A stretch of DNA of 64,000 nucleotides, taken from assembly GCA_905160935.1 (NCBI GenBank), contig CAJHZI010000191.1, positions 1 through 64,000 of the forward strand, given 5' to 3'. Every line of letters begins with the position of its first letter. The stretch's first letter is position 1. The translations under genes and the position numbers were made by a program. This stretch comes from Enchytraeus crypticus. Taxonomy: Eukaryota > Annelida > Clitellata > Enchytraeida > Enchytraeidae. The notes below the pieces were generated by a model. The model ran no database searches, was not told the origin of the DNA, and saw only the letters and a program-made list of their open reading frames with translations. Shown here piece after piece: positions 644 through 63,180 of this stretch.

Positions 644-890
644 GTGCAGACCTATCTGACTCATAAGGGTCAAAGACTGGCAGGTAGCGAGGCTGAGGGT
701 GACTGCTACCTGGAGTTGAGCAAAGAAAGTGAAGTCACTGTAGCCAATGGCAACGATGACGTCACAGTTACCAATGGCAACGGCGATGACTCACATCTGA
801 CGGACGAATGGAACATTTACGTGAACAAAGCCTGCCCTCTAGGAGAAGAGCTGTACGTGAATGTTGCTGATGCAGTTAACAGGATCACAG
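644..890 (+). CDS. SACS: SACS exon a (first in window)
   Basis: This exon starts after a (GTT)n tract ending in tcaacag and ends at a gtaatc donor in phase 1. It encodes 82 residues, from VQTYLTHKGQ to the codon split before GRLLKQ. It includes an acidic, Asn/Asp-rich stretch with the near-repeats VTVANGNDD and VTVTNGNGDD, which probably arose by slippage, followed by a conserved-looking WNIYVNKACPLGEELYVNVA segment. The (GTT)n repeat replaces a normal polypyrimidine tract at the acceptor. Confidence 0.8.
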
Positions 891-3800
891 GTAATCTATG
901 GTCGATTTCATTTAAAAAGACTTTGCTAGAGTAGGCTATAAAATCCTGTTGTATAAAAATTAGTGAGTTAGAAGAGAATTTAATTGAAATGTTCTTAAAT
1001 TCAATTGGAATTTATTTAATTTCATTAAATCCTTCAAGATTCCTATAAAAATTGTTACTAATTATTTTGATGTCATTCACTTCTGCTACTCCAGTCTTTG
1101 CTTATATAATCTGCTATTTATCATAATGATGGATTAGTTAAACTCTCATTAGCATTTCAAAAATGAAAATTTAACATTTTTCTGAGAAAGTTTCCCATAA
1201 AACTTCTGGATGACTAAACGAACACGAAGCATCTTATCTCTGTGAAGTGGAGAGATGTTTCGTATGATGTAAACTTGCAACTTTGAGTTAGTGTTAATTT
1301 TGATAACATGTTACCATGCTGAAATGTAATGAGTTAGTGTTAGCTTTATTAACTTGTTAACAGATCGAAAGATAAATGTGTTAGTGTTAATTTTGTTAAT
1401 TTTTTAACAGGCCAAAATGTAATGAGTTAGTGTTAATTATGTTAACTTGTTACCAGGTCGAGATTGGTTAGTGTTAATTTTGGTTAACTTGATATCAGGT
1501 CGTCTCTTGAAGCAGTACTCGCACCACATTCAGTCAATGCTCGCTTGCCCGCCTCATTCTATATCTAAAGTGCTCGACCGGCTCAAGGTTCGACCCGACC
1601 ATCAGCTGAACGGGTCGGGGGCCAAAGGCACCGGCAGCGACGAGTCTCACCAATCAGCGCTCCCCACCAGTGGCTCATTCATTCCCATTGAAGAGCATCA
1701 CCTGCTCAGAGAGGATTTTGAGAGCTTTGATGTAGGTGAGTATGTGGGATACGAACTAGAGGACGAATTAACTGGTGAACCAACCATTATATACGCTATA
1801 ATACTCAAGAAAGTTGTGGCAGCCGAAGGCCAGGGAGAATCACCTGAGAGACACTCGTCATCGTCATCTCGTTTGAAGGAGAGCTATGTGATAAGCGTTG
1901 GTGAGGATAGAGAGCCTGTCACAGCCTCGAACTCTGAGCTCTACAAGTTCTACAGGGTGGATCAAATAACTGCTGAGTCATCGTCCAACAGAGAAAGTCC
2001 GCCTAGAAGTAGCTCCAACTTAAGATCTGGGTCTTCTTCCAGCGCTAAATCGATTAATCAATCAGAATCAAAGCTGCCAAATTCATTTAGCGATTTTCTC
2101 GATCAGATTAATGGAGAGAAGAAAGAAGAAAAGAAGGAATTGGTGATTAGTGAGAGCAAGGACTCCACGTCTGCTCAACAGAGATCTCTTGTTGTTTCTA
2201 AGAAGATATTGACAGACGGTAGAGTGGTCGGAGTTAACAGCAATCAAATGAAGATGCCGAACAATCACCCCAGAGCTTCAACGAGCAATGATTCAGATTT
2301 GAAAGGTGAGGGAGAGGTGAAGGAAGAGGCTGAAGTGGAATATATTACTGATGAACAGGTGAGACTGGAAGTGACTGAAATCTTAGAGGAAGCTTGGACT
2401 CTTCCGGAGAAACAGAGGAAAAAGGTTCGCACACTAGTTACAATTAATTTAAATGTTAGACCATTTCAATTGCACTCTACATTAGCTTAGTATAAACGAA
2501 ATTCTTAGACCATTTCAATTGCACCTTAAATTAGTTTAGTATCAATAATATTATTCGAAAATACATCAGTGATGGCGACCCAAGAATTTGAATCCTGCAC
2601 CTTCTGATTCTCAGTTACTGACCGTATTTTTGTCTGTGGCTATGAGCTAAATGTGGGCTAACCGAACGTAAAATATTTGTTGTTGTGTACCAGATGAATG
2701 GGCGAGTTGGCAGCAACCAACATCAGAACAGAAAGGGCATTCGGTTGATTGACGCCTAGTCTCAAGACATGTTAACAAAAATTTCTAATCCCGACCATAG
2801 TTAAACTGCGATTCTAGTGAAGATGATAATGATGGTGACTGTGGCCTCTTTTGAAATGCTCAAGGCTAACGCCTAGTTTAAAGTCAGTTTCCTCTATATT
2901 TTGCGACTGAAAAATAATGATTCTCTATTTTCCGCAATCAATCCATCAATCAATCAATAAGAATTTAACCTCCGATTCCTCGCCATAAGGCAATATCAGG
3001 GACATTTCTTGCAGACTCTGCACAAACAGACGTCAAAACACCACGCTCAAAAGTAAACAAGCATTATAGTGAAATGATCAACTGTGTTGATATCTATCAC
3101 TTTTGATACCACATGTTTAAACCGTTACCAAATTTAGACCATTTGCCGTGTAACCAGTCCAGTGAATGTCCGAGATTTAACTCTCAGATCAGCGCGGCTG
3201 GGATTCGAATCCTCTAGAGTTTAATTCACCTCAGGATCTGTCACTTAAAACTTCATGATGTTACCTCTACGCTATTAAGACTCAGTCCTTTGTTGTGTCG
3301 TACAACAGGTGATCAAGAGACTACTGCTCAAGTGGCACCCAGACAAGAACCACGGGGATGAGGAGTTCGCCACGATCATCACTCAGCACATCTACCAGGA
3401 AGTGGAGAGGCTGGAGTTAGGACTGCCTCGCGCCATGTCGCCCGAAGAGTTCCGAAGTAGCAACGTGTCCAGTGACCCGCGGAATCCGTTCAGCGGAAGC
3501 GAGAGCTTTCAGCGGAACTTCTACGACGCCTACAAGTTCTACTTCGAGCAGATGAACCAGCGAGCCAGAGAGCACCGCGAGAACAGAGAAAGGTACAAAG
3601 AGAACTTCCACAGAGAGTATCAGTCCTATCAGTCGTCGTCTTATCAGTCGTCTAATCAATCCAAATCATCGCAGAATTTCAATCAAAGAAGCTCGAGTCA
3701 TAGTAATAGCACTGCTGGCGATGCAAATAGAGGCACGACAAAGAACGGAGCCGGTGAAGAGCAAGGAAGTGGCTATACCTTTGAAGTGCCTCCGACCTTC

Positions 3801-6050
3801 GCGAGCACAAATCCCCAGCCCGCCCAGGCTAGGAGATTCTTGAGGCAGGCCCAGGAGGACTTGTGGTCGGCTGAGAATGATCGAGAGACGAACACAGAGA
3901 AACCTGCCCACGAGTGGGTCTGCTTCAAAGCTCACCAGGTGGCGTGTTTAGTATTTGCAATTTAATTACTGCTCTTTTTAAAACTTAAACGAATGGAAAA
4001 TAGTCTATTCATCTCCCGACCCTGGTTAAACTGAGTTTTAAGGGAGGATGATGATGATGATGAATTACTGTTCTTTTTAAAAGTTAAAAATCATATGTTA
4101 TGTTCATTACTGATGATGACCATGGATATCTTTGATATCTATCACATATACTATAACCTTCTTAAACCGTTGGGCAGTTTATCATCAATTGTCAGTAGAA
4201 CTGGTCCCTTAAATGTCCTATATATATTTACTCTTCTATCAGTTAACCCAAGAACGCAAAACCAAACTCTCGATATCGTGATCTCAAAAACGCCATGTAA
4301 AGTTTCGTGATGTCACTGAATTGTTCAAATTATAATTTTCGAAGTAGGCCTAATTGACCGGCGTTTTCAAATCCAGTATTTGAAATATATTGTTGGTTCA
4401 CTGAAGTGGAGACATTACCTTGGATTGAGGAGGTTTGTCCGTTGTGTCCTATCACCTCTCAGAGATCTGAGTGAACTCAGAGTCTGCATTCAGTATTACT
4501 ACTAGAGAATGCGATGACATCCAAATCTGTCAGAACATCATGTTGATGTGCATTTAACCTTTCAAAAAGTATAAGTTAATACTAAGTGTTTTAACACTGA
4601 ATGTTGAATTCCTTTAATAGCGTAGGGGTAACATCATGAAGTTTTAAATGGCAGATCATGAGGTGAATTGAAACCTCGTGGGTTCGAATCCCAGCCGCGC
4701 TGATCTGAGAGTAAAGTCCCGGACATTCACTGGATTCACTGGGCTGGTTACACGGAAAATGGAATATATTGCCTAACGGTTTAAACATGTGGTATTAAAA
4801 AGTGATAGATATCAACATAGTTGATCATTTCACTATAATGCGTGTTTACTTTTTTACTTTCAAATTAATAGGACTTTTCTGGAATTTTAGCTGTTGATAA
4901 TCGACCTGAATCACCTGCTAGTATTATACACGCATATTTATCATAGAAGTTGATGGGTTTTTAAAATTATCACAATTCTTGACAGTCAATGCTATCAGGG
5001 TATTAGCTACGATAAGGGTTACTATAAAGTTGGTAGCTTACAGAAGGGTTCCGTTAGGTTAGCACTAGATAAATTTTGGTTTCGGAGCTAGCATTAGACT
5101 TAATTATATTTCAAATTATTTCATGCTCTATAGTTTAGCCTTAGGATTAAAAGAGGCTACATTTGCATCACTAGTTTGTAATATATTGTGGTTACCGCCA
5201 TATCATCTAAATTAGCATTAACTGCATTTAATTTACTAGAGATTTGCTACCGATATTATGGATCTTTCATTTGACATGTCGAAATATGAAATTTTGATTA
5301 TTTTAATACCATACGGAAGACTCTAGTAAATCTCTTTCGTCTCCATGACTTCAATATTTCTTTGAGTTGAAGGTTAGTGTAGCATAAGCAGTGGTTAAAG
5401 TAGGAAGTCAGAGCTTGGGGAACGGTCATAATTTTTCGGACCCCTGTATTGTTTTTATAGATCTCCTAGTATCTAATGTGAACCCTTAGAAGGGGAACGC
5501 ACCTCAGAAAAAAGAAAGCTAGATGAACTGAGTTTCTCTACGTTCCTATCCACTTTAACCACAGGGCATAAATAGTGCAGATAGACTCTCCGATACTCCA
5601 CTTTATATGAGCTTTGCGAAAACATAGAGTCTGCTTCATAATTAATTATACAGATTAATTAATTATTAATTAACTGACAGACTGATCGATTAACTGAATG
5701 ATTGATTACTTCTTTTATTATTGACTGATTGATTGATTGATTGATTGATGCAGGCTGCTGAGAAAGCTCTCAAGGCCGCTCAGTTTTTTGTCGACGCTAT
5801 CGTCAGCTACAGTCACGACCTTGTCGTGCTCGCCGCTTCGCTCGAGGACGTCAAGCTGCGTCAGTTGGCGCAGAGACTACAGCGCATTGTCGGCAACTCA
5901 TCCAAGCTCTACAATCCTGATCCCATCGACTTCATCGTCATCCCTCACGACGAGTTCACTCAACAGATGTCGCAGGAGGCTGTGAGCATAGCAGACAGCC
6001 TGCTCCAGCACGTCAGGGAGCTGATAGAGCAAGAGGCGCAGCACTGTTGA
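644..6050 (+). CDS. SACS: Sacsin (SACS) orthologue, last four exons
   Basis: Sacsin is a very large neuronal co-chaperone that ends in a DnaJ-like domain and a HEPN domain. Four exons join in phase: 644-890, 1499-2424, 3309-3938 and 5754-6050, together 2100 nt or 699 codons plus a TGA stop. The order of landmarks matches the vertebrate sacsin C-terminus as I remember it: a segment containing LACPPHSISKVLD, a GEYVGYE segment, the J-domain helix with WHPDKN, a Ser/Gln-rich linker, a VPPTF motif, and the HEPN helices with EWVCFK. All introns are GT-AG. The window starts inside the gene, so the first exon here is internal and the upstream exons, with the Hsp90-like repeats, lie outside. Poorly conserved Ser-rich linkers at residues 150-330 and 470-530 of the fragment are longer than in vertebrates. 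The family call is firm; the exact splice sites are inferred. Confidence 0.9.
891..1498 (+). other. SACS intron with 46-bp minisatellite before the acceptor
   Basis: This is the intron between SACS exons a and b. Its first 390 nt are plain AT-rich sequence with nothing recognised. The last 214 nt (1285-1498) are about five tandem units of roughly 46 bp built on GAGTTAGTGTTAATTTT; unit starts are near 1285, 1331, 1378, 1424 and 1466. Four of the units end in an acceptor-like cag, at 1361-1363, 1408-1410, 1454-1456 and 1496-1498. Confidence 0.8.
1499..2424 (+). CDS. SACS: SACS exon b
   Basis: This 926-nt exon begins after gatatcag in phase 1 and ends at a gttcgc donor in phase 0. It carries the sacsin-like LACPPHSISKVLDRL segment, the acidic EDFESFDVGEYVGYELED segment, and then about 150 residues of Ser/Lys/Glu-rich linker. 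It closes with EEAWTLPEKQRKK, the helix that leads into the J domain of the next exon. An alternative acceptor at 1454-1456 would extend it by 42 nt in frame (see findings). Confidence 0.85.
2650..2860 (-). repeat. SINE-C copy
   Basis: On the minus strand the end reads (ATC)n, then CTAGTTTAACTATGGTCGGG-like sequence, then a body with CCAACCGAATG and CTGATGTTGG. The same body recurs on the plus strand at 15972-16140 and 55281-55510. It lies in the intron between SACS exons b and c. Confidence 0.7.
3060..3290 (+). repeat. SINE-B copy
   Basis: SINE-B has a GTGAAATGATCAACTRTGTT head, a middle with CCACATGTTTAAACCGTTA, GCGCGGCTGGGATTCGAATCC (B-box-like) and a tail with AACTTCATGATGTTACC. This is the most complete forward copy. 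It lies close upstream of the acceptor of SACS exon c. Confidence 0.75.
3309..3938 (+). CDS. SACS: SACS exon c: DnaJ-like domain
   Basis: The exon opens with VIKRLLLKWHPDKN, which contains the His-Pro-Asp tripeptide that J proteins use to stimulate Hsp70 ATPase. A Tyr/Gln/Ser-rich low-complexity linker follows. The exon ends with the conserved VPPTF motif, the RRFLRQAQEDL helix and EWVCFKAHQ, the first HEPN helix. The acceptor is caacag and the donor is gtggcg, phase 0 at both ends. GC content is clearly higher than in the flanking introns. Confidence 0.9.
3995..4065 (-). repeat. SINE-C fragment
   Basis: A short 3' piece: (CAT)n followed by the minus-strand form of the CAGTTTAACCAGGGTCGGGA box, in the last SACS intron. 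Confidence 0.6.
4598..4850 (-). repeat. SINE-B copy, inverted
   Basis: This is the reverse complement of the 3060-3290 copy over nearly its whole length, including the GATTCGAACCCACGAGG segment. The two copies flank SACS exon c in opposite orientation about 1.3 kb apart, so the pre-mRNA could fold across that exon. Confidence 0.75.
5389..5564. mobile_element. Short hAT-type MITE, 176 bp
   Basis: Inverted ends CAGTGGTTAAAGTAGG and the complement of CACTTTAACCACAG bound a 176-bp non-coding element. Flanks AGCATAAG (5381-5388) and GGCATAAA (5565-5572) share GCATAA and look like a decayed 8-bp target duplication. CAGTGGTT ends with an 8-bp duplication are typical of hAT transposons. It lies in the last SACS intron. 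Confidence 0.75.
5754..6050 (+). CDS. SACS: SACS terminal exon: HEPN domain
   Basis: This exon encodes the last 98 residues and the TGA stop. The helical sequence AAEKALKAAQFFVDA, then LRQLAQRLQRI, and the closing IPHDEFTQQMSQEAVSIAD segment match the C-terminal HEPN domain of sacsin, a small nucleotide-binding and dimerising domain. The acceptor gatgcag follows directly on a (TTGA)n repeat at 5728-5750. Confidence 0.9.
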   Translation, partial: AAEKALKAAQFFVDAIVSYSHDLVVLAASLEDVKLRQLAQRLQRIVGNSSKLYNPDPIDFIVIPHDEFTQQMSQEAVSIADSLLQHVRELIEQEAQHC

Positions 6051-8132: not shown

Positions 8133-8369
8133 GTTTTAGGAAAGACTTCATTAGCGTAGAGACTTAGGAAAGTTAGTGATAGGTTAATTTTTTGTTTTAA
8201 CGAATCTCGTGTGTTTTATACAGTAGAATGAGTATGTGTTATTGTACATTTATCAGACTTCTTCGCAAATGTTGTCATTGGCTATGCATATTGACAATAA
8301 ATTAAAGTATTGCTAAAATGTTTTGTACTACATAAAATTGTACTTTTGCCATGTCAACTAATCGTGTTT

Positions 8370-8463
8370 GTGCATACTTCTTATTTCAGTCTAAGAGAAA
8401 TCTTCGAATTTCTCTTGTGCATACTTCTTATTTCAGTCTAAGAGAAATCTTCGAATTTCTCTT
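8370..8463. repeat. 47-bp perfect tandem duplication
   Basis: Two identical 47-bp copies, each starting GTGCATACTTCTTATTTCAG, stand head to tail. Each contains the inverted repeat AGAGAAAT/ATTTCTCT. The lack of any difference between copies points to a recent event. Confidence 0.85.
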
Positions 8464-11993: not shown

Positions 11994-12310
11994 CTACCCC
12001 ACATAAACGGCCTTCCAGGTCTTATGAGCCTCGGGATCGGTGGTATGCTGGATGAGTCTGGCTCCGTTCTCCATGGAGGCGTCCCTGATCGTCAGAGCAA
12101 ACCCGTCCTCGTTGACGATCTCATCCCCGCTCCACTTCCACTTGCCTCCAGCGTAGGAAGACTTGATGGGATGCATCTCCAGTCCGCTCAGATCCCCCGC
12201 TCTCTCACTGGCTGGTCCAGGAACTCTCCCGTGGAGTAAGTCCCTGAGGACTTCCGCCAATCTCTTCTCTTCTGGATGAGTATATAGAGGCAGGTCAGTT
12301 TGTAGGTAAA
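11994..12310 (-). CDS. Lectin-like gene exon 4: beta-trefoil, end
   Basis: The acceptor tag at 12313-12311 gives the reading IYLQTDLPLYTHPEEKRL, followed by LEMHPIKSSY, GGKWKW, GDEIVNEDGFALTIRDAS and a terminal ARLIQHTTDPEAHKTWKAVY. The xxIVNEDGFALTI segment is a standard ricin-B repeat start. The stop is TAG at 11996-11994. Two bases at the exon start complete the split codon from exon 3. Confidence 0.8.
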
Positions 12311-15300
12311 CTATGCAGTGAAGATTATTTAACGTCCTATTCTTCGCCCGAAGGCGATGAAGGCAATGTCATGAACGCATCAAGTAGAATTTTTTTTACT
12401 TTGGCTCTAATAAACTTCACTTCACTTTAACGCATCAAGTAGAATATAAAAGCAGCACTAAGCCAGAATGCATTAGTAAATGCATACACGAAGAGAATAT
12501 TATGATCCTGATAGCATTACTTTAATAGACCCTACCTAAAAAAATAAACACGCATTAAAGTGAAATGATCAACTATGTTGATATCTATCACTTTTAATAC
12601 CACATGTTTAACCTGTTAGGCAATTTGGATCATTTTCCGTATAACCAGGCCAGTGACTAATGCCTAAGCTAATACCTAAACTGAAGAAAATAAAATGATC
12701 ATGATTACAAAATTTTCTCCTGATAAGGTTCGTAATACGAAATAGTTGTTGACTTTGGTTTTGGTACTGATCCGTTACGGTCGGTATTTGGTTATGCTAG
12801 GATACGGTAATATGGATCGTGAAAAGTCTATTGATAATTTCTGATGCTTTACCTCATAACAGATGTCATGTGATAACTTTTCAAAGTAATCGGCACTAAT
12901 TTGCTTACTAGTTAAACGTTTTGTAACTTTTACAGTAGCTAAAAATGAAGTTACACTACTAGTTAGAATTCTAAATTTAAATAGTTTAACTAACGTTTGT
13001 GAATGTTAAGCTTTTAAAACTTTCTTAACTTTTATACTTTTGAACTAACCGATGAGGGTCATCAGGGTATGGTTACAACAGGCGTTAACTATTGTAGCGA
13101 CTTTCAAAAAATAGTTTACAGAAAAAGTTGCAAAAGTTAACTTTTAACGAAAAGAGTAGCAAACTCCTAGTAAATTTTTATTAAAACAAGTAGGTAAACT
13201 TTTGATGTGACTCTTATCGTAGTTAAACTTGAAGTTATAGCTAAACATGTTCATATTTTGCACATCTTCGACCTTTCTAGAGATGAAACTAGTAGGGGCT
13301 TTAATATCAGACATTTAAGTTATAAAAGATGTAGAAGAGGTAAATCTTCAATGAAGATGTAATACTTTGACGTTTTGGAAATGATCTTCTGGTGCAGAAC
13401 CGGCCTTTAAATTCTTATTGGCCAATGGCTGGAGCCAGTGGCGAAGTCGGTAAGATACTCGACCACGGATCCGTATGTGCGGAGTTCAAATCCTGGGCTC
13501 GCCCGTCACTGACATCGCTTTCGAGTGAGGAAACTGACGTTAACATTATCTTTTAGCCTTTTTTGACCTTTTTTAAAATTATCTTCTGGTGCAGAACCGG
13601 GCATAAATTTTTTATCTCTAATGACTTAGACAGTGCTACATACTTTTACTGCTATCAGAGAAGCCCATGCTGGTGTCCAGGGCCGATCTGATGAACCCTT
13701 CCTCCCCCACTGACCACAGCTGCTGTTTGTCGTTACCACCTCGCTTGTCCCACATTTGAACCTTCGCCCCTTCCACAGCGCCACCCGGTGTTATCTCCAG
13801 GACCTTCCCGCTGTACTTACTCTCAATGTAGAAACTCTTTCTAAAACAAAAAACTTGATAATTAGAGTGCTACTGTAATCAATGACAACGTTTCCCAATA
13901 AATTATAGTACATTTTAATCAAAAACTCATCGGTCATCGGACTCTCTATCATATTTTCATTTAACTTGGTTTCATTGTAGAAACTCTCCATCAAACGTCG
14001 AAATAAAAACTTAATATAAAACTCATCAATCAATCATCGCCGTTTCTACTACAAAGTCTTAGATAACGGGCTCTTTGTATAAATCTATTAGTGCCATATC
14101 GGGCAATAACTTAATCATTCTCAAATCATTAAATTCATCACTGAAACAGTCACTGAATCATCCGAAGAAGCAATAAAGAATTCATTAAGTTCAAAAAATC
14201 TTTTTCAGCAATTACTGGCATGATTAATGAATACAGGCAACTGTATTGCATGCCCTTCAATCACTGCGCAATGTGTAATACCGTTGTGCAAACAATTTTT
14301 CCGTACTTTTCACGGTTAATTCAGAGGGGAAAGAACTTGTAAATAACAGAACACTGGGTCACGAAGCACAGAGGCTTTTGTCAAGATCCATTTCCTCCTT
14401 CCTCTCATGGTTATTAGTAATCTTTGCCTTTTGATGTCGCATCAATTGCAGCCGGCGCCAATATAATAATAAATTTCGTCACTCTGGGATTTTTCGTTCC
14501 AAGCTGTCAACACTCGGTCTTCCAAGGTGGTCACCCACAAAGTACTAACCGAGGCCGATGTAGCTTAACTTTGATTATTGACGCGCAATAAATCACGTGC
14601 GCTAATCCCGCCCGTCAAAAACAGTTAAAAAAACGAGTAATAAGCAGAATAAAAAATTTCTTTCCAGGCACGCCATTTACCCGGGCGCAGGTGCTACATC
14701 ATTTCCGCCTCCGTCGCCTTCTCCTTGACCCTGACCTTGACCTTGACCCTGACCTTGATCCTGGCCTCCTTGACCTTGATGATCTCCTCCTTGACCTTCA
14801 TCCTGCCCTCCTTGGCCTTGAACTTGGTCGTTCGTATCTGCATTTGATAGTGAAAACGTTTGCGCTACATAACTACTGTAATCAAGGGTTGCGGATCAAA
14901 ACTCATCTACAAATGTTACAAAAATTGCTGAATGTATATATACATATACATATATAACGACGTTAACCTTAGCTTTACCAGCTTTATATATGTAACATAA
15001 TATATCCTTAACAAAATTGTTTATTGATTATTGATTATATAAATATTTATTGACTATGCTTTTGTTTCATGCATGATTTTCAATGCTAGCCTCATATTTT
15101 GAAAACATTTTTAAAACTATAAAATTTAACGATATTGGACAAATTATTTCATCAGCATTATGAACACTGGTGATCAAATTAAACCAAAGTAGGCTACACT
15201 TACTTTTTCTTTTGGCTTTCAATCTATGTAACTGAATGCAATATCAATTAGGCCTATCACTTATTATATTTTTTTCGTAACACAGTTACGACATGAACTT

Positions 15301-20589: not shown

Positions 20590-21806
20590 TCTCTCTTAGT
20601 GCACTGCCTACTGGCAGGTCCATGGTACATAACGCCTCCACTCTTCTCTGTCTTCCGCCTTCCTCTTCATTTCCACATATGAGTGGGTCTTTAAATCATC
20701 TAACATACCTAATCTCGGCCTGCCCCTGCCTCTTTTTCCTTCCATTCTACCTTCTATGACCTCTTTTAATAGACCTTCCCCCCTTAGAATGTGTCCTATC
20801 CATCTCTTCTTCCTATTTCTTGATACATTTATCAACTGTCTATACGTGCCAACTCTCTCCAGAACTTCCTCATTTGTAACCTTTTAAGTCCAGCTAATCC
20901 TCTCCATTCTTCTCCAAATCCACATTTCCAATGCCTCCAGTTTCCTAATATCTTCCTTTCTTAAGGTCCATGTTTCACATACATATAATAGCGTGGTCCA
21001 AACCAAAGTTTTCACTATCTTTATCTTTGTGTCTTTCTTTAGACCTTTTGTTAATAGTTCTTTTCTACTACCAAAGGCCGCTTTTGCTTGTGCAATCCTA
21101 CTGCATATTTCTGTCTCACATTTCCCATCATCGGTTATAGTATGACCCAAATATTTGAAACTCCTTACCTGTTCCAATTTCGTACCATTTATTGTGATAC
21201 TAACTTCACCTTTATTATTGGACACTCTCATAACCTTCGTCTTTTTTATATTAATCTTCATGCCATATCTCAAAGCCGTATCATTCAGCCTATTCATTAT
21301 CTTCTGCAATCCAATCTCGCTGCCCGCTACCATTCCTTGGTCATCTGCAAATCGTACATCTTGTAACAAATTCCCTCCTACTTTTATTCCTTCTTCCAAG
21401 TCTTCCATGGCTTCCTCCATCATTGCCTCAGCGTAAATTTTAAACAGCAGCGGCAAAATGCTACAACCTTGTCTTACTCCACGTCCTATTTCACCTTCTT
21501 CTCAGTATTCTTGTTGGATTTTGATTACTGCTCTTTGATTCATGTACAAGTTCAAAATTAGTCTTCTATCTCTCCAGTCAATTCCTAGTCTTTTTAAGAT
21601 ATTCATCATCGTTATCCAATCAATCCTGTCAAAGGCCTTCTCGAAGTCTACAAAGCCTACAAAAACGTCATTGCCATATTCTAAGCTTCTTTCGCAAAGA
21701 ACCAGCATTACTCCTATTGCTTCTCTTGTGCCGCATCCTTTCCTAAAACCAAATTGTGGCTTGCTCAGTATCATATCAGTAGAAGTATATATAGATTCTT
21801 ATTAGT
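20590..21806 (-). mobile_element. 5'-truncated non-LTR retrotransposon (LINE), RT domain
   Basis: The minus strand keeps the reverse transcriptase from QFGFRKGCGTREAI (21774) through DFEKAFDRI, the GVRQGC box, FADDQGMVAGSE (the catalytic YADD-box equivalent), GMKINIKKTKVM, a KYLGH box and a C-terminal RWIGHILR and GRGRPRL. It ends at PWTCQ and a TAG stop. Two in-frame stops interrupt it, one after QQEY near 21500 and one after ERISWT near 20885, so it is dead. The endonuclease is missing. The 3' UTR is very short: the stop codon lies inside the tail shared with SINE-D. I do not assign the clade; the GRGRPRL end is common in endonuclease-reverse transcriptase LINEs of invertebrates. Confidence 0.85.
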
Positions 21807-26278: not shown

Positions 26279-48039
<21,761 letters not shown>

Positions 48040-52735: not shown

Positions 52736-54609
52736 ATATTAGTAGCTGATATTAAAAATAGAAATTATTTTTAAAACTAAAGTAAAGTAGAAATAGGAAT
52801 AAATGTTTGCCTAATTGAGTTGTACCTTGAACGAAAATTTATTATTAACAGAAATTGTTATAAAATAAAATATTTTTTATTATACATTATGTCATCTATT
52901 TTTGCTCTTTAGCGTTTTTGTGTATATAACATTTTTATGAATGTATAATAACAGCCTGTTGCTTTGTTTTGATAGGTTCCCATGATGGCTATCTCTGAGG
53001 TGGACTGGAGCACACCTAAAACGAGGCTGAAAACTATGGCTGGTCTCAAATCTTCTAAAGTTAAAAGATCTGTGAAATTTTCCCCTGCCATTGATACAAC
53101 ATTTTATCAGGATCTGCAAAAGAAGGCACCTAAAGCAGTTCTTTGGCAAATGGCTCCTGCTGTTACATCATCCGCTTCAACTGAGACAATGTCAACTGAG
53201 ACCTGTACATCAGACCCTGATTTCTCACAGCAGCCGTACATTATGAGTACTCACTCTCACTGTAGATATCAGTCATTTGAACCTTTAGCGCTTTTAAGTG
53301 AATGTCGCCAAACAGTATCTTCTTTGGCAATAACAGATGAGCAATTGATAGTCATTGAAGAGTTAACCAGAGAGCAAAGTAAGTCTCCGTTATGGTTTGC
53401 AGTACGATGTGGTTGACTAACTGCTTCTTCGTTTTTTTTTTTAAACCATCTATTCAATTTACTATTTCTACTAAAGACATTGATGAATTTATCTGTAGGA
53501 ATGAAAATGAAATTTTCTCTAAATCAATTCAGTGGGGTTTACGGAATGAAAGCAAAGTACGGTCAACTGTAATGGCTTTGTTAAAATCATTCCATGTTAA
53601 CCTGCAGATAAACTGTTGTGGGATTTTAGTAAGCCAGTTAAAGCCATTTCTTGGAGCATCTCCAGATGGCTTTGTATCATGTAGCTGTCATGGGAAGGCT
53701 TTACTAGAAATAAAGTGTCCGTATTCACAAAGATTTGAAGATCCTGGTACAGTTCCTCATCTAATTAGCACTGGCTATCATAAACACCTTGACCAAGTAT
53801 CAGATTACTATGCTCAGGTTCAAGGACAGATGGCCATACGTGGTATTAAGCAGTGCAATTTTGTGGTATACACCTTAAGGGGTTTACATGTTGAAGTTAT
53901 TGACTTTGATATTAACTACTGGCAGAAGTTAGCTACTAGATTACAGGAAGTGTTTACATACTTAATGATGCCCTGCATTCTAATGGGTGAGAATATAGTC
54001 ATTGGTATTACGAAATGCAACAAGCTTCATTTGTCACTGTAAGCTATATAAAGAGGGTAGAATTATTAGGTGCAATAATGAGTCATGTAGTGTTGGATTC
54101 TTTCACTATGCTTGCGTTGGTATTAAACGGAGGCCGGCCAAGGCTTGGTTTTGCTGTTCAGGGTGTGTCAAAGAAGAAGATGTTAGTGATTGATAATTTG
54201 CTGTTGTACAAATTCATTTTTCATGATAATTTTTGCTAATTTTGGTAGAATGTTGCCTATTTTTGCTGTTTACAATTTTTGTTACTGTAGACCTTTTATA
54301 ATATGTAGTGGTTACTCTATTCACATAATAAAGAAAGCCTAGTGAGAGAGTGGGGAGGATGTGTGCTTCTATTGACGGCTGGCAATATTCTATATATTCG
54401 TATATATTTATTGTGTATTTCTTCATTTATAAACAGAATGGTATTTGTAATAATTACAAAAATTATATTTGAATTTCTTGTCAAATGATGATAAACATAT
54501 GTCTTAATTTACAGTTAAGACATGTCTAGATAGACTATCTAGAGGGATTTATTACATTTTAAGGAAATATTACATTGCAGTTGTTTTCTGCAAAACAATC
54601 AAGTTTATG

Positions 54610-55658: not shown

Positions 55659-57581
55659 TTAATCCTTGTTATTATTTATAACCAATGGAGACATGAGATT
55701 GCAAAGGCCGGCTGAAATAGAAATGAAATCGTCTAAATGTGGCATTAGAAGGATGGGAACTGTTTCAGTCAATAATTTGAAATTTTTCATACGCCCTATA
55801 CAACGTTCTACATGTATGCGCACTCGTGCAATTAATGCTGAACTCTCAACATTACGTCCAGATAGTTACTTCTGGCCACGAGTAAATGACGGTACAGATA
55901 TAGTCACTCCCTTTGCACTCAAATCTTCTGCTATTGGGAAACCTCTATCTGCAAGTACATGATCTCCTGCTTGCAGAAGATCATAGAAGCCTGACTTCCG
56001 AACAAGCTCAATATCTGACACCCTACCTCCCCATGCCTTTGAAACATAGTCTACACCTCCAGTTGGTGTACAAGCAACTAAAACTTTTGCAGTGTTTCTG
56101 CCTTTGTAGTGAGAGTATATTTGTGCCCTAGTGGTCAGAGATGTAGGACGTTGAATAAAGATCTCTGTACAGTCTATTATGAAATGAGTTCTTCTAAACG
56201 TGCGTGATCTCTTAAATGATTTTGGTAAATTCTTTAACACGTTTTCTGAAGAAGGATTTACAATTAGCATAGATAGAAGTTTGGCAAGCAAAGGTGTAAA
56301 CTTATCAAATATGTGTGTAACAGTAGCCGCACTAACACCAAATAGATCACACAACATCTGCATTCCTAGATTCCTTCTGATCTTTACTAAAATCATCAAA
56401 ACGCAATTCTCTAACGACAAAGCCTTGATGTTTACATGCGAACTTAATTTAGACGAATGACAGCACAAAGTTTCAAAAACTTCGTACGACTCGATTCCTG
56501 TATAGTACTTAAGCCGAGTGGCATCAAATTTAAGGTTCTCTATACTGATTACTCGCTTTAGGCATTTCTCAGTTGTGTTTAATTGGCTTTCAGTAGCAGA
56601 TAAACTTCTCCGGAGCTGAGAATTTGCTCGGGTGAGCTCATGAAGTCTAGCAATTATGTTAGACCGCTTTGGTGTTGATGCCTGCGAGGAACGTGTTCTG
56701 TACTTTTTAGGTGTAGTTTGTAGTGAAGCCGAGGAAGTGGATGGTTTTTGGGTAGGAGCTGCTGCTGCTAATATATCAGGTTTATCGAATGCGCCTCGTA
56801 CAGTGGCCGGACCTTCTGAAGCCAATGAAGATGTACAATTATCTCCTGTAACAGAATTTAAAAATACCATCAGGGCAAATTGTTCCTTAAAATACTAACT
56901 GATTACGCATAAATGATTCAATATATCAGTTCTCCATTATATCATTTAATCAATTGATAATCTTCACATGGAATTGATTCTCATTGTACTAAATAATAGC
57001 ATAGCATCATTCACTGCAAATATAGATATGAGGTATATATGGTAATTTAAACAGTTATTACATTTTTGGATGTAAATAGATGAAGACTAGATTATGCTTC
57101 CTTTATTTACAATGAACAAATAGACTTGACAACTAATGCCACTATGGCAAAAATGTATTTATAAGGAATAAATCAACAAATACTGCTTTGACTATGTATC
57201 AGGATTATCATCATGAAGATTATTATCATCATCGTCATCACCATCAATTTTTAGCTGAGTTTCATGTTAGGCTTAATACTATAGTAATATTTTCTACAAC
57301 AGCTCTAGAATAAACATCAGAAAGATATATCATCTCTCAGCAGTACAACAAAAATGAGTGCAACTTGCAAACAAACCTAACGTAGCAGAGGCTGAAGGTG
57401 CAGTACGCTGCATAATCGGATATCTACTTTGCACATTGGCTTCTCTTCTTCGTTGGGCCCTATTAAATCTGGTTAGCGCAGCCTCAGCCTGATCAACATT
57501 TGAAGAAAAACTGAATATTGACGGAACATAATCTGGATGATCTGGACATTTATTTGGCTGCCCTAAAGCATAAATAAAACA

Positions 57582-60836: not shown

Positions 60837-63180
60837 CTGACTATGTCTTTAACATAACATAACATAACATTTACATAGTCAGGAAGCAATTATATGCTTG
60901 TTTAAGACTCATCAGAATGCTCATAAAATCTAAATGAACCTAAAATGAATCTAAATGAACTAAAATGCTCTTAACTAAAACCAATTAATATTAATCAAAT
61001 CATACAGACTTCATGTCAACATGGCAAATTTATACATAGCCTATGTTTAACACTGAACATGCAATTAGCTTCTAATTTACATGTTCTTATGTTTATCATA
61101 TTTATTTTTAAAAGCATTCACTGATTCTGTTTCACCAACTTCGCTTGGCAAACTATTCCAAGCATTTATAACTCTCTGACAAAAGAAAAATTTCCTTGTC
61201 TACTTCTAAATTTATTAATTTTATAAATATGTCCCCTTGTGTTTCTGTTATTTGATAAATTAAACCAAATACTATGGTTAACTTTACTGAAGCCTTTGAG
61301 TATCTTAAAAGCTTCTACTAAATCTCCTCTAGTTGTGCTCTCACTTAAAGAGGTTAATCCTATGAATTTTAATCTATTCTCATAACTAAGTTTTTGACAG
61401 TCAAATACCAGCCTTGTTGCTCTGGCTTGTACCCTTTCTAATTTATCGATATCTTTCTTTAGATAGGGGCACCAAGCCTGAACGCAGTATTGAAGTTTGG
61501 GCCGTACAAGAGCCTTATATAGCCTTACCACAATATCTTTATTTCTACATGCAATTGTTTTTTTAATCATTCTTAATACACAATTAGCACTATTTACAAC
61601 TTTATTACAATTTTCACTAAATTTAAAAGAGCTATCCACAAAGACTCTAAATCCCTCTCACTGTTTGTGGATTTTAGTTTTATATTGTTCAATGTATACT
61701 CAATTTCTAAATTATTATTCCCTATATGCATAACTCTACATTTCTCAGCATTGAACTCCATTAGCCAATCCCTAGACCAGTTCTGTAATATTTTTATATC
61801 GTACTTTAAAATGTCAGCATCTTCAATGTTGTTTACTATCTTTGCTACTTTAGAATCATGTGCAAATTTACTAAATTTAGATACAATATCTATGTCAATG
61901 TCATTGATGTAAACTAAAAATAATAGAGGTCCTAAAACAGAGCCCTGTGGCACACCACTCTTCACTGCTGCCCATTCCGAGAACTCGTCCTCGACACACA
62001 CCCTTTGTTTTATATTGCTTAACCAATTACCTATCCTTTAAAAGTTTACCCGTTATTCCATGTGCTTCCAACTTACTAAGTAATCTTTTATGTGGAACTT
62101 TATCAAACGCTTTAGCAAAGTCTAGATGTAAGATATCAATGCTATTTTTATTATCTACTTCCTTTGTAATATATTCTAAAAAATCTAGCAAATTAGTTAA
62201 ACAAGAACGCCCACTAATAAAACCATGCTGACTATTTCTAATTAAGTTATATTCTTCCAAGAAACTAATTATTTTATCCTTAATAATGCTTTCAAATGTC
62301 TTACCAATTATACTTGTTAAGCTTATAGGCCTATAATTTGCTGCTTTATCCCTATTTCCCTTTTTATGTATTGGTACAACATTTGCATTCTTAATATCTT
62401 GAGGAACCACCCCTGTTTTCAATGAAGCTTTTAGTAGGTTTAATAGAGCTGGTGCTAATTCATCTCTTAGCTCCGAAATCAGTTTTCCATGAATCTCATC
62501 TGGACCTTGACTTTTATTGACATTTAGCGAATTTAATTTATTTATAACATCATCAATATCAAACTCAATATTATGTAAGGAGTATTCAAAGTTACCTTTG
62601 AAGATCCTAGCCGGTACTGGCATATTAACTAAATCATCTTCCACAAATACAGACGAAAAATATTTATTAAAATAGTTTGCAGTATCTTTATTATCTTCTA
62701 TAATGTTGTTATATTCATCTCTTAAAGGACCAATCTTTTAATAACCTTTTTGTTAGCATTAGCATAAGCAAAAAAACTCTTTGCATCATTCTTTATATTA
62801 CGAGCTAGCTGTTTTTCAAATTCTAACTTGGCTTTTCTATTTTCTGCAACCGATTTATTAAGCTGTTTCTTATATTCACAGTACAAAGTTTCATCATTAT
62901 CACTATTTTTATACTTATTCCAAGCATCTTTTTTGGCTTTTCTTTTTCTTCTTACCCTATTAGTAACCCACTTGCATCTATCTCTATTTTTGGCTTTCAA
63001 TTTAATACACTCATCACGAACCATCCTGAGACCTGTGTTAATATTATTCCATAAGCATCGTTATTATCATTATCACTTAAAACCATAAATAAATTTCTAT
63101 GCTGTATATTTCTTTTAATTTCTTCATAATTTACTTTAAAATAATCAAATTTTTGGACTTTCCTAGAGATCCAACTGCAT
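60837..63180 (-). mobile_element. 5'-truncated CR1-like LINE
   Basis: Minus strand, from the end of the endonuclease region (SRKVQKFDYFKVNYEE near 63170) through KSQGPDEIHGKLI, NYRPISLTSIIGKTFE, HGFISGRSCLTNLL, LDFAKAFDKV, SGVPQGSVLGPLLFLVYIND, FAHDSK (degenerate YADD box), VRPKLQYCVQAWCPYLKKDI and TRGHIYKINKFRSRQGNF. Frames change near 62725, 62030 and 61620, so it is dead. The tail is (TTATG)n at 60851-60870. The FAHDS in place of YADDS suggests that this copy also lost catalysis. It is related to the fragment at 19.3 kb. Confidence 0.85.

Follow-up and report, generated by a model that had tools for sequence, protein, structure and literature searches.

The DNA analysed here, referred to as the window, is a stretch of 64,000 nucleotides that comprises the first 64,000 bases of one contig (C109) of a 524-Mb assembly in 802 contigs. 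A plus-strand gene at positions 644-6050 of the window corresponds to sacsin (SACS), the host gene proposed in the initial annotation: its exon c matches the PDB chains of the sacsin J domain (1iur, KIAA0730) and of the sacsin HEPN region (3o10), and the spliced product matches the Pfam HEPN domain at 5.1e-12, with DnaJ remaining under its cut-off. Four exons have been placed (Table 1), of which a and b join in phase, with a junction reading ACAG/GTCG (the slash marks the splice junction). Since the window begins at the first base of C109, the SACS gene has been cut by the assembly and its 5' part is missing from the contig. The upstream half of this copy was not found among the seven matches listed when the genome was searched with the upstream part of a paralog on contig C363. 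Contig C370 was considered as the missing part and rejected, as it carries another paralog. In the remainder of the window, a frame with DDE_Tnp_4 transposase and HTH_Tnp_4 domains at 55866-56894 (-) and a YqaJ-type nuclease frame at 53383-54042 (+), about 2 kb away, are probably transposon pieces. Reverse-transcriptase-like frames include one with Pfam RVT_1 matches at 43809-44588, one under the cut-off at 27478-28428, and two named by eye at 20608-21798 and 61166-62737. A coding-like frame at 11994-12368 (-) has no Pfam match, and another is found at 13639-13869 (-), which may be a lectin-type repeat. No Rfam family matches anywhere in the window at gathering scores, and no tRNA gene was detected in it by ARAGORN.

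Table 1. SACS exons, the a/b intron and the repeat units at its 3' end (window coordinates).
Feature	Positions	Strand	Remarks
SACS exon a	644..890	+	Ends ...ATC ACA G, phase 1; supported by paralog alignment
Intron a/b, 608 nt	891..1498	+	gtaatc...tatcag; absent from three SACS paralogs
Unit 1	1272..1317	+	Ends CCAT, no AG; first 12 nt outside the Tandem Repeats Finder array
Unit 2	1318..1363	+	Ends AACAG; acceptor-like, 4.4 bits; would add 135 nt in phase, with 3 stops
Unit 3	1364..1410	+	Ends AACAG; strongest acceptor-like site, 9.7 bits; would add 88 nt, frameshift
Unit 4	1411..1456	+	Ends ACCAG/GTCG; candidate in-frame alternative acceptor, 4.8 bits
Unit 5 (42 nt)	1457..1498	+	Presumed normal acceptor ATCAG/GTCG at 1498, 9.0 bits; would become the insert RDWLVLILVNLISG if 1456 were used
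SACS exon b	1499..2424	+	Supported by paralog alignment
SACS exon c	3309..3938	+	Part of J domain, start of HEPN region
SACS exon d (HEPN)	5754..6050	+	(TGAT)n tract in front

At least four SACS-like copies are present in the genome (L004, L031, L009), three of them unbroken at the a/b site and the C109 copy cut by extra introns. A search of the assembly with the SACS C-terminus returned C363 (48% identity, in one match covering residues 49-495) and a more distant copy on C302. With the upstream part of C363 as query, C370 was obtained as well, along with weaker places on C385. On C363 the reading frame continues unbroken across the positions of both the a/b and b/c junctions, and the HEPN intron is placed as in C109. 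At the a/b site C370 has an open frame with no gap, reading EMINTLLMGLLHDSV, while C302 aligns across it as a single gap-free block, also with an open frame. In vertebrates the HEPN domain of SACS is encoded by the last exon of the gene. That exon, which also contains the J domain, has been given a length of nearly 12 kb (PMC10602964), and the a/b intron is presumed absent from the vertebrate gene. With the intron missing from three paralogs and presumably from the giant exon of vertebrates, a gain in the C109 copy is the most simple explanation; the alignments suggest that the intron was probably gained there at an AG/GT site rather than lost from the other copies. The acceptor of the HEPN exon is common to three SACS copies, with a different array before each of them (window 5669-5753, L010:2019-2405 and L011:3077-3334).

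The 3' end of the a/b intron is occupied by a minisatellite at 1284-1502 (+), for which Tandem Repeats Finder gives a consensus period of 46 bp, 4.8 copies and a score of 224, in agreement with the array of about five units of roughly 46 bp originally described. The five units, cut as 46, 46, 47, 46 and 42 nt, share pairwise identities of 67-85%, and exon b starts at 1499. A 31-nt core allowing at most three mismatches has three matches in the window against 0.00 expected, and the array was matched at one place in the assembly, no second copy being reported, although simple repeats and very common words are passed over in such a search. It had been stated that each unit ends in AG and four of the five in CAG; the latter holds and the former fails at unit 1, which ends in CAT at 1317. 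The last two units do read CAG/GTCG, at 1454-1460 and again at 1496-1502, so that two units contain CAGGT. The only exon b bases contained in the units are GTCG, the rest of the exon not being repeated. With the exon share limited to these four bases, the AG-aligned junction of the SACS b acceptor is repeated at 12/24 positions, a background level (exon part 6/16), and the SACS array is better described as a repeat of the intron end than as a duplication of the whole boundary. An assembly artefact or a heterozygous collapse of the array would be scarcely credible: C109 does begin at the first base of the window, with the gene cut by the assembly, but the units differ from one another by 15-33%, which does not fit a duplication made in assembly, and 1.3 kb of contig sequence precedes the array. 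Elsewhere in the window, at 8368-8463, a perfect 47-bp tandem duplication contains the acceptor-like sequence cttatttcag.

The unit ends have been scored with an acceptor model, a position matrix spanning -22 to +3 and built from 24 further acceptors of this genome, a small set in which many sites belong to genes that had drawn attention by their arrays. Ranks one to four among the 32 AG sites at 950-1530 go to the four CAG unit ends, the fifth-best AG reaching 3.7 bits, and the leave-one-out scores of the 24 model acceptors range from 0.1 to 14.1. Sites 1410, 1456 and 1498 each have a branch-point-like A in a yUnAy context 20-21 nt upstream; for 1363 the distance is 15 nt. By this measure a 3' splice-site module is indeed what the unit repeats, as had been proposed for the minisatellite, and its weaker copies also fall within the range of real sites. 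As 1456 (4.8 bits) lies inside that range, it may see some level of use, and use of an upstream acceptor is likewise conceivable given that 1410 scores slightly above 1498 (9.7 against 9.0 bits).

The same array had been thought to allow a host gene to gain a hydrophobic insert by choice of repeat unit, through a working in-frame alternative acceptor at 1456 that adds 14 residues to sacsin. Part of this proposal has been borne out. Use of 1456 would add exactly 42 nt in the right phase, that is 14 codons (RDWLVLILVNLISG) without a stop, the reading frame is open from 1426 on through exon b, and the site combines CAG/GTCG with a branch-point-like A 20 nt upstream and a score within the range of real acceptors. 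The earlier acceptors had both been expected to shift the frame, which is the case for 1410 (88 nt added) but not for 1363, where the 135 nt added are in phase and carry three in-frame stops. Against a working in-frame acceptor stand the strength of the site, about 4 bits below 1498 and about 5 bits below its best rival, the frame-shifting 1410, and the properties of the insert itself. An open frame over 42 nt has a probability of 0.30 in dinucleotide shuffles, which with a one-in-three chance of the right phase gives 0.10 for an open in-phase unit. The insert has a non-coding score of -3.83 nats, whereas the first 42 nt of exon b reach +3.96 and the end of exon a reaches +2.24, a contrast flattered by a coding model trained on SACS copies that include exons a and b. 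Alignment through the a/b site finds no insert in C363, C370 or C302. A working acceptor of this kind is thus very unlikely, the hydrophobic gain originally suggested is not upheld, and a useful in-frame isoform, as predicted from these features, is unlikely.

This genome has further loci with tandem duplications of exon-intron boundaries. Such minisatellite-like duplications are known from amphioxus, where they have been named mirages and described in the Adh3, TnC, globin and PGBD5 genes (PMC3087553; PMC3902484). Boundary-spanning units that include exon sequence occur in the present genome at L041, L044, L050 and L021:5266. At two Myosin-head exons, L050 and L041, the acceptor together with at least 15 of 16 exon bases is repeated upstream (22/24 and 24/24, respectively, in the AG-aligned comparison). 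Further cases include an amine-oxidase gene acceptor at L017:5961, where ten 65-bp units repeat true exon bases, a WD40 gene acceptor at L021:5266, whose array also repeats true exon bases, and an exon at L013:9340-9605 with an acceptor array repeating exon bases. A micro-exon of the WD40 gene (L021:3600-4640; tcag/AGGTT...GAAG/gtaggt) is accompanied by 11 acceptor and 12 donor copies with (GTT)n between them, and on the donor side a 43-bp unit repeated 12 times at L028:23-548 apparently comprises the end of an amine-oxidase exon and the donor gtatgt. The examples at L017, L021, L013 and L028 were partly found through their arrays. The amine-oxidase and WD40 genes are presumably KDM1B-like and WDR26-like, Pfam supporting only Amino_oxidase and WD40. 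Minisatellites with a period of at least 20, at least 2.8 copies and a score of at least 100 cover 10,265 of the 187,133 bases examined, a figure in which 4,310 C363 bases are counted twice owing to the overlap of L010 and L023.

A set of acceptors selected irrespective of repeats was taken from Myosin_head matches only, consisting of 24 stretches of the 81 matches listed; L032 was dropped as a continuous exon, and L039, L042 and L049, once left out as unclear, were included, giving 23 acceptors. AG-aligned upstream copies of the junction at 17/24 positions or more were found at 4 of these 23 (L037, L041, L044 and L050), compared with 8.4% of 5,000 random AG sites (p=0.12). Intron-side copies at 16/24 or more, the loosest intron-side threshold, were found at 8/23 compared with 14.4% (p=0.012), the sole one of 14 thresholds below 0.05. 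Left out of the counts were one RhoGAP-gene acceptor and, in the junction and gapped tests, the L013 exon, which had been found by its array. Ab initio exon prediction, with 14 matches in the window and 13 in a reversed control, had too much noise for counting. A targeting of arrays to acceptors had been suggested by a first set, in which 10/23 acceptors had intron-side copies at 19/24 or more against 7.0% of 4,000 random AG sites. As that set had been assembled in part from genes that stood out by their arrays (L017, L021) and from genes next to them (L028, L029), the Myosin_head set was taken instead, and targeting received no clear support from it. Boundary repeats are frequent in this genome, but in this sample they do not significantly exceed the general repeat load.

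These counts bear on whether selection has kept the SACS array as a splicing aid, with the repeated modules of branch point, T-rich stretch and CAG boosting acceptor recognition for an intron newly placed in a giant exon that formerly had none. Three units each carry a TTAAT A 20-21 nt before their own CAG, tandem arrays precede the acceptor of the shared HEPN intron in each of C109, C363 and C302, and the intron-side excess at myosin acceptors would fit such a role. The excess is nevertheless confined to one threshold, with no significant excess at 17/24 or more, and could be produced by short T-rich tracts by themselves. A selected splicing aid is therefore unlikely.

The array is probably best regarded as a partly decayed, mirage-like minisatellite that was formed from the 3' end of a SACS intron as a by-product of a heavy load of tandem duplication. 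Under this explanation, a segment containing a branch-point-like TTAAT or TTAAC, a T-rich stretch and CAG, together with GTCG, would have been duplicated to about five copies, of which the final one would provide the acceptor in use, at 1498. Those further upstream would be cryptic acceptors, and their tolerance would follow from the good site kept by the last unit and from the stops or frameshifts in the products of 1363 and 1410, whose mRNAs would be removed or lost. From the unit scores and frames, splicing is expected to take place at 1498 almost always, the upstream AGs constituting noise.

It has also been considered whether the array seeded the intron. The last 16 nt of exon a (875..890, +), GTTAACAGGATCACAG, are identical at 12 of 16 positions to the last 16 nt of the intron, GTTAACTTGATATCAG, and a second comparison of intron end and exon end at the a/b site gives 7/11 matches. 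According to the Rogers model, introns can be gained through tandem duplication of a segment containing AGGT, with ATP2A1 and a multi-copy 24-bp case in fission yeast among the examples described (PMC4974935). Applied to SACS, an exonic AG/GT segment comprising the tail of exon a and GTCG would have been multiplied, its first GT and last AG becoming splice sites and the array being the remnant. The absence of the intron from three paralogs and, as predicted, from vertebrate SACS is consistent with such a birth, as is the site itself (ACAG/GTCG). Outside CAG/GT, the spliced junction matches the unit consensus at 11/15 positions without gaps, a value reached by none of 26,775 other AG sites; 10 matches are reached by 15 AG sites and by none of 311 CAGGT sites. 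In a gapped, AG-anchored test a score as high occurs at 40/30,308 AG sites and at 0/1,065 exonic AG sites. The tail of exon a matches that of the 1498 acceptor at 9/13 positions, compared with at most 6/13 for the 24 other acceptors. After GT, the start of the intron agrees with that of exon b at 5/9 positions, which is equalled by 1,022 of 24,241 GT sites. Introns b/c and c/d match poorly in the same comparisons (2 and 1 of 13; 2/9 each).

Other results weaken the case. In the gapped test 6 of 350 CAGGT sites score as high (1.7%), and the real units score 9, 7 and 3 compared with 11 for the consensus, unit 4 being equalled by 17 of the 350 CAGGT sites (4.9%). Without anchoring, matches as good as that of the consensus arise in 23 of 2,000 shuffles, although it beats all 2,198 coding windows, and matches as good as that of the real array arise in 159 of 2,000 shuffles and 53 of 2,198 coding windows. 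The register and window of the comparison were picked after looking, and the strictest conditioned test gives only 1.7%. The GTTAAC motif is also present in an unrelated intron array on C302, and the units lack exon b sequence beyond GTCG. The resemblance between unit and exon junction is suggestive of a Rogers-type signature, and birth of the intron from the multiplied exon junction is accordingly put forward as a tentative possibility. Compared with Rogers-type cases, the SACS intron is alike in being restricted to one gene copy, in its AG/GT site, in its multiple tandem copies and in the resemblance of its unit to the flanking exon end. It is unlike them in that its homology to the exons is weak and largely confined to the upstream one, and that no source was found for the rest of the 608-nt intron. 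A more encompassing version, which we hold to be doubtful, would see a young intron preserved together with its source: the minisatellite would have grown from the exon's AG/GT junction (GTTAAC..GAT..CAG/GTCG) in one giant-exon sacsin copy, its first GT and last AG becoming splice sites and its other units remaining as competing acceptors, one of them in frame, with the same process seeding boundary repeats at many genes of a probable protostome.

An indication of the host's affinities comes from L024:4143-6836, which contains a myoinhibitory-peptide-like precursor with copies of the KWNKNEMRMW-GKR type and 14 WGKR sites, seven of them RMWGKR. Annelid myoinhibitory peptides have been reported as AWNKNSMRVWamide and relatives (PMC4307165), which the L024 copies resemble when compared by eye, and these peptides have been described as having no orthologs in deuterostomes (PMC8557429). 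The precursor therefore suggests that the host is most likely a protostome, perhaps a lophotrochozoan. Amphioxus, brought to mind by the reports on mirages, is not supported as the host; a search for the GFP family had no match, its control being silent as well. Among the titles listed for minisatellites with splice sites, intron gain and annelid genomes, none reports mirages from a protostome, which does not prove their absence in print.

As a device for alternative splicing the SACS array probably matters little. Its value lies in the record of intron evolution that it offers: of four SACS copies compared, a single one carries the intron, whose acceptor is repeated and which may derive from exon sequence. 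The intronic VNTR of ABCA7 has, judging from the title of its report, an effect on splicing and disease risk (PMC5954066). The SACS array is alike in being an intronic tandem repeat with a possible splicing effect and differs in that the effect has been reported for ABCA7, whereas here it is hypothetical. The closest likeness is to the mirages of amphioxus, whose units are given as 10-72 bp in Adh3 and 150-160 bp in the globin genes, many of them with AG/GT. They reportedly leave regular splicing undisturbed, and it has been proposed that new introns can arise from them (PMC3087553; PMC3902484). The SACS array similarly consists of tandem units at an intron/exon border with a repeated AG(/GT) in a gene that is still open, its unit length falls within the range of Adh3, and other loci of this genome repeat true exon bases. 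It differs in sharing only GTCG with the exon and in belonging to a host that is probably a protostome and not a cephalochordate. The comparison suggests that the mirage situation of amphioxus exists in a protostome too, where models of intron gain from minisatellites would become testable.
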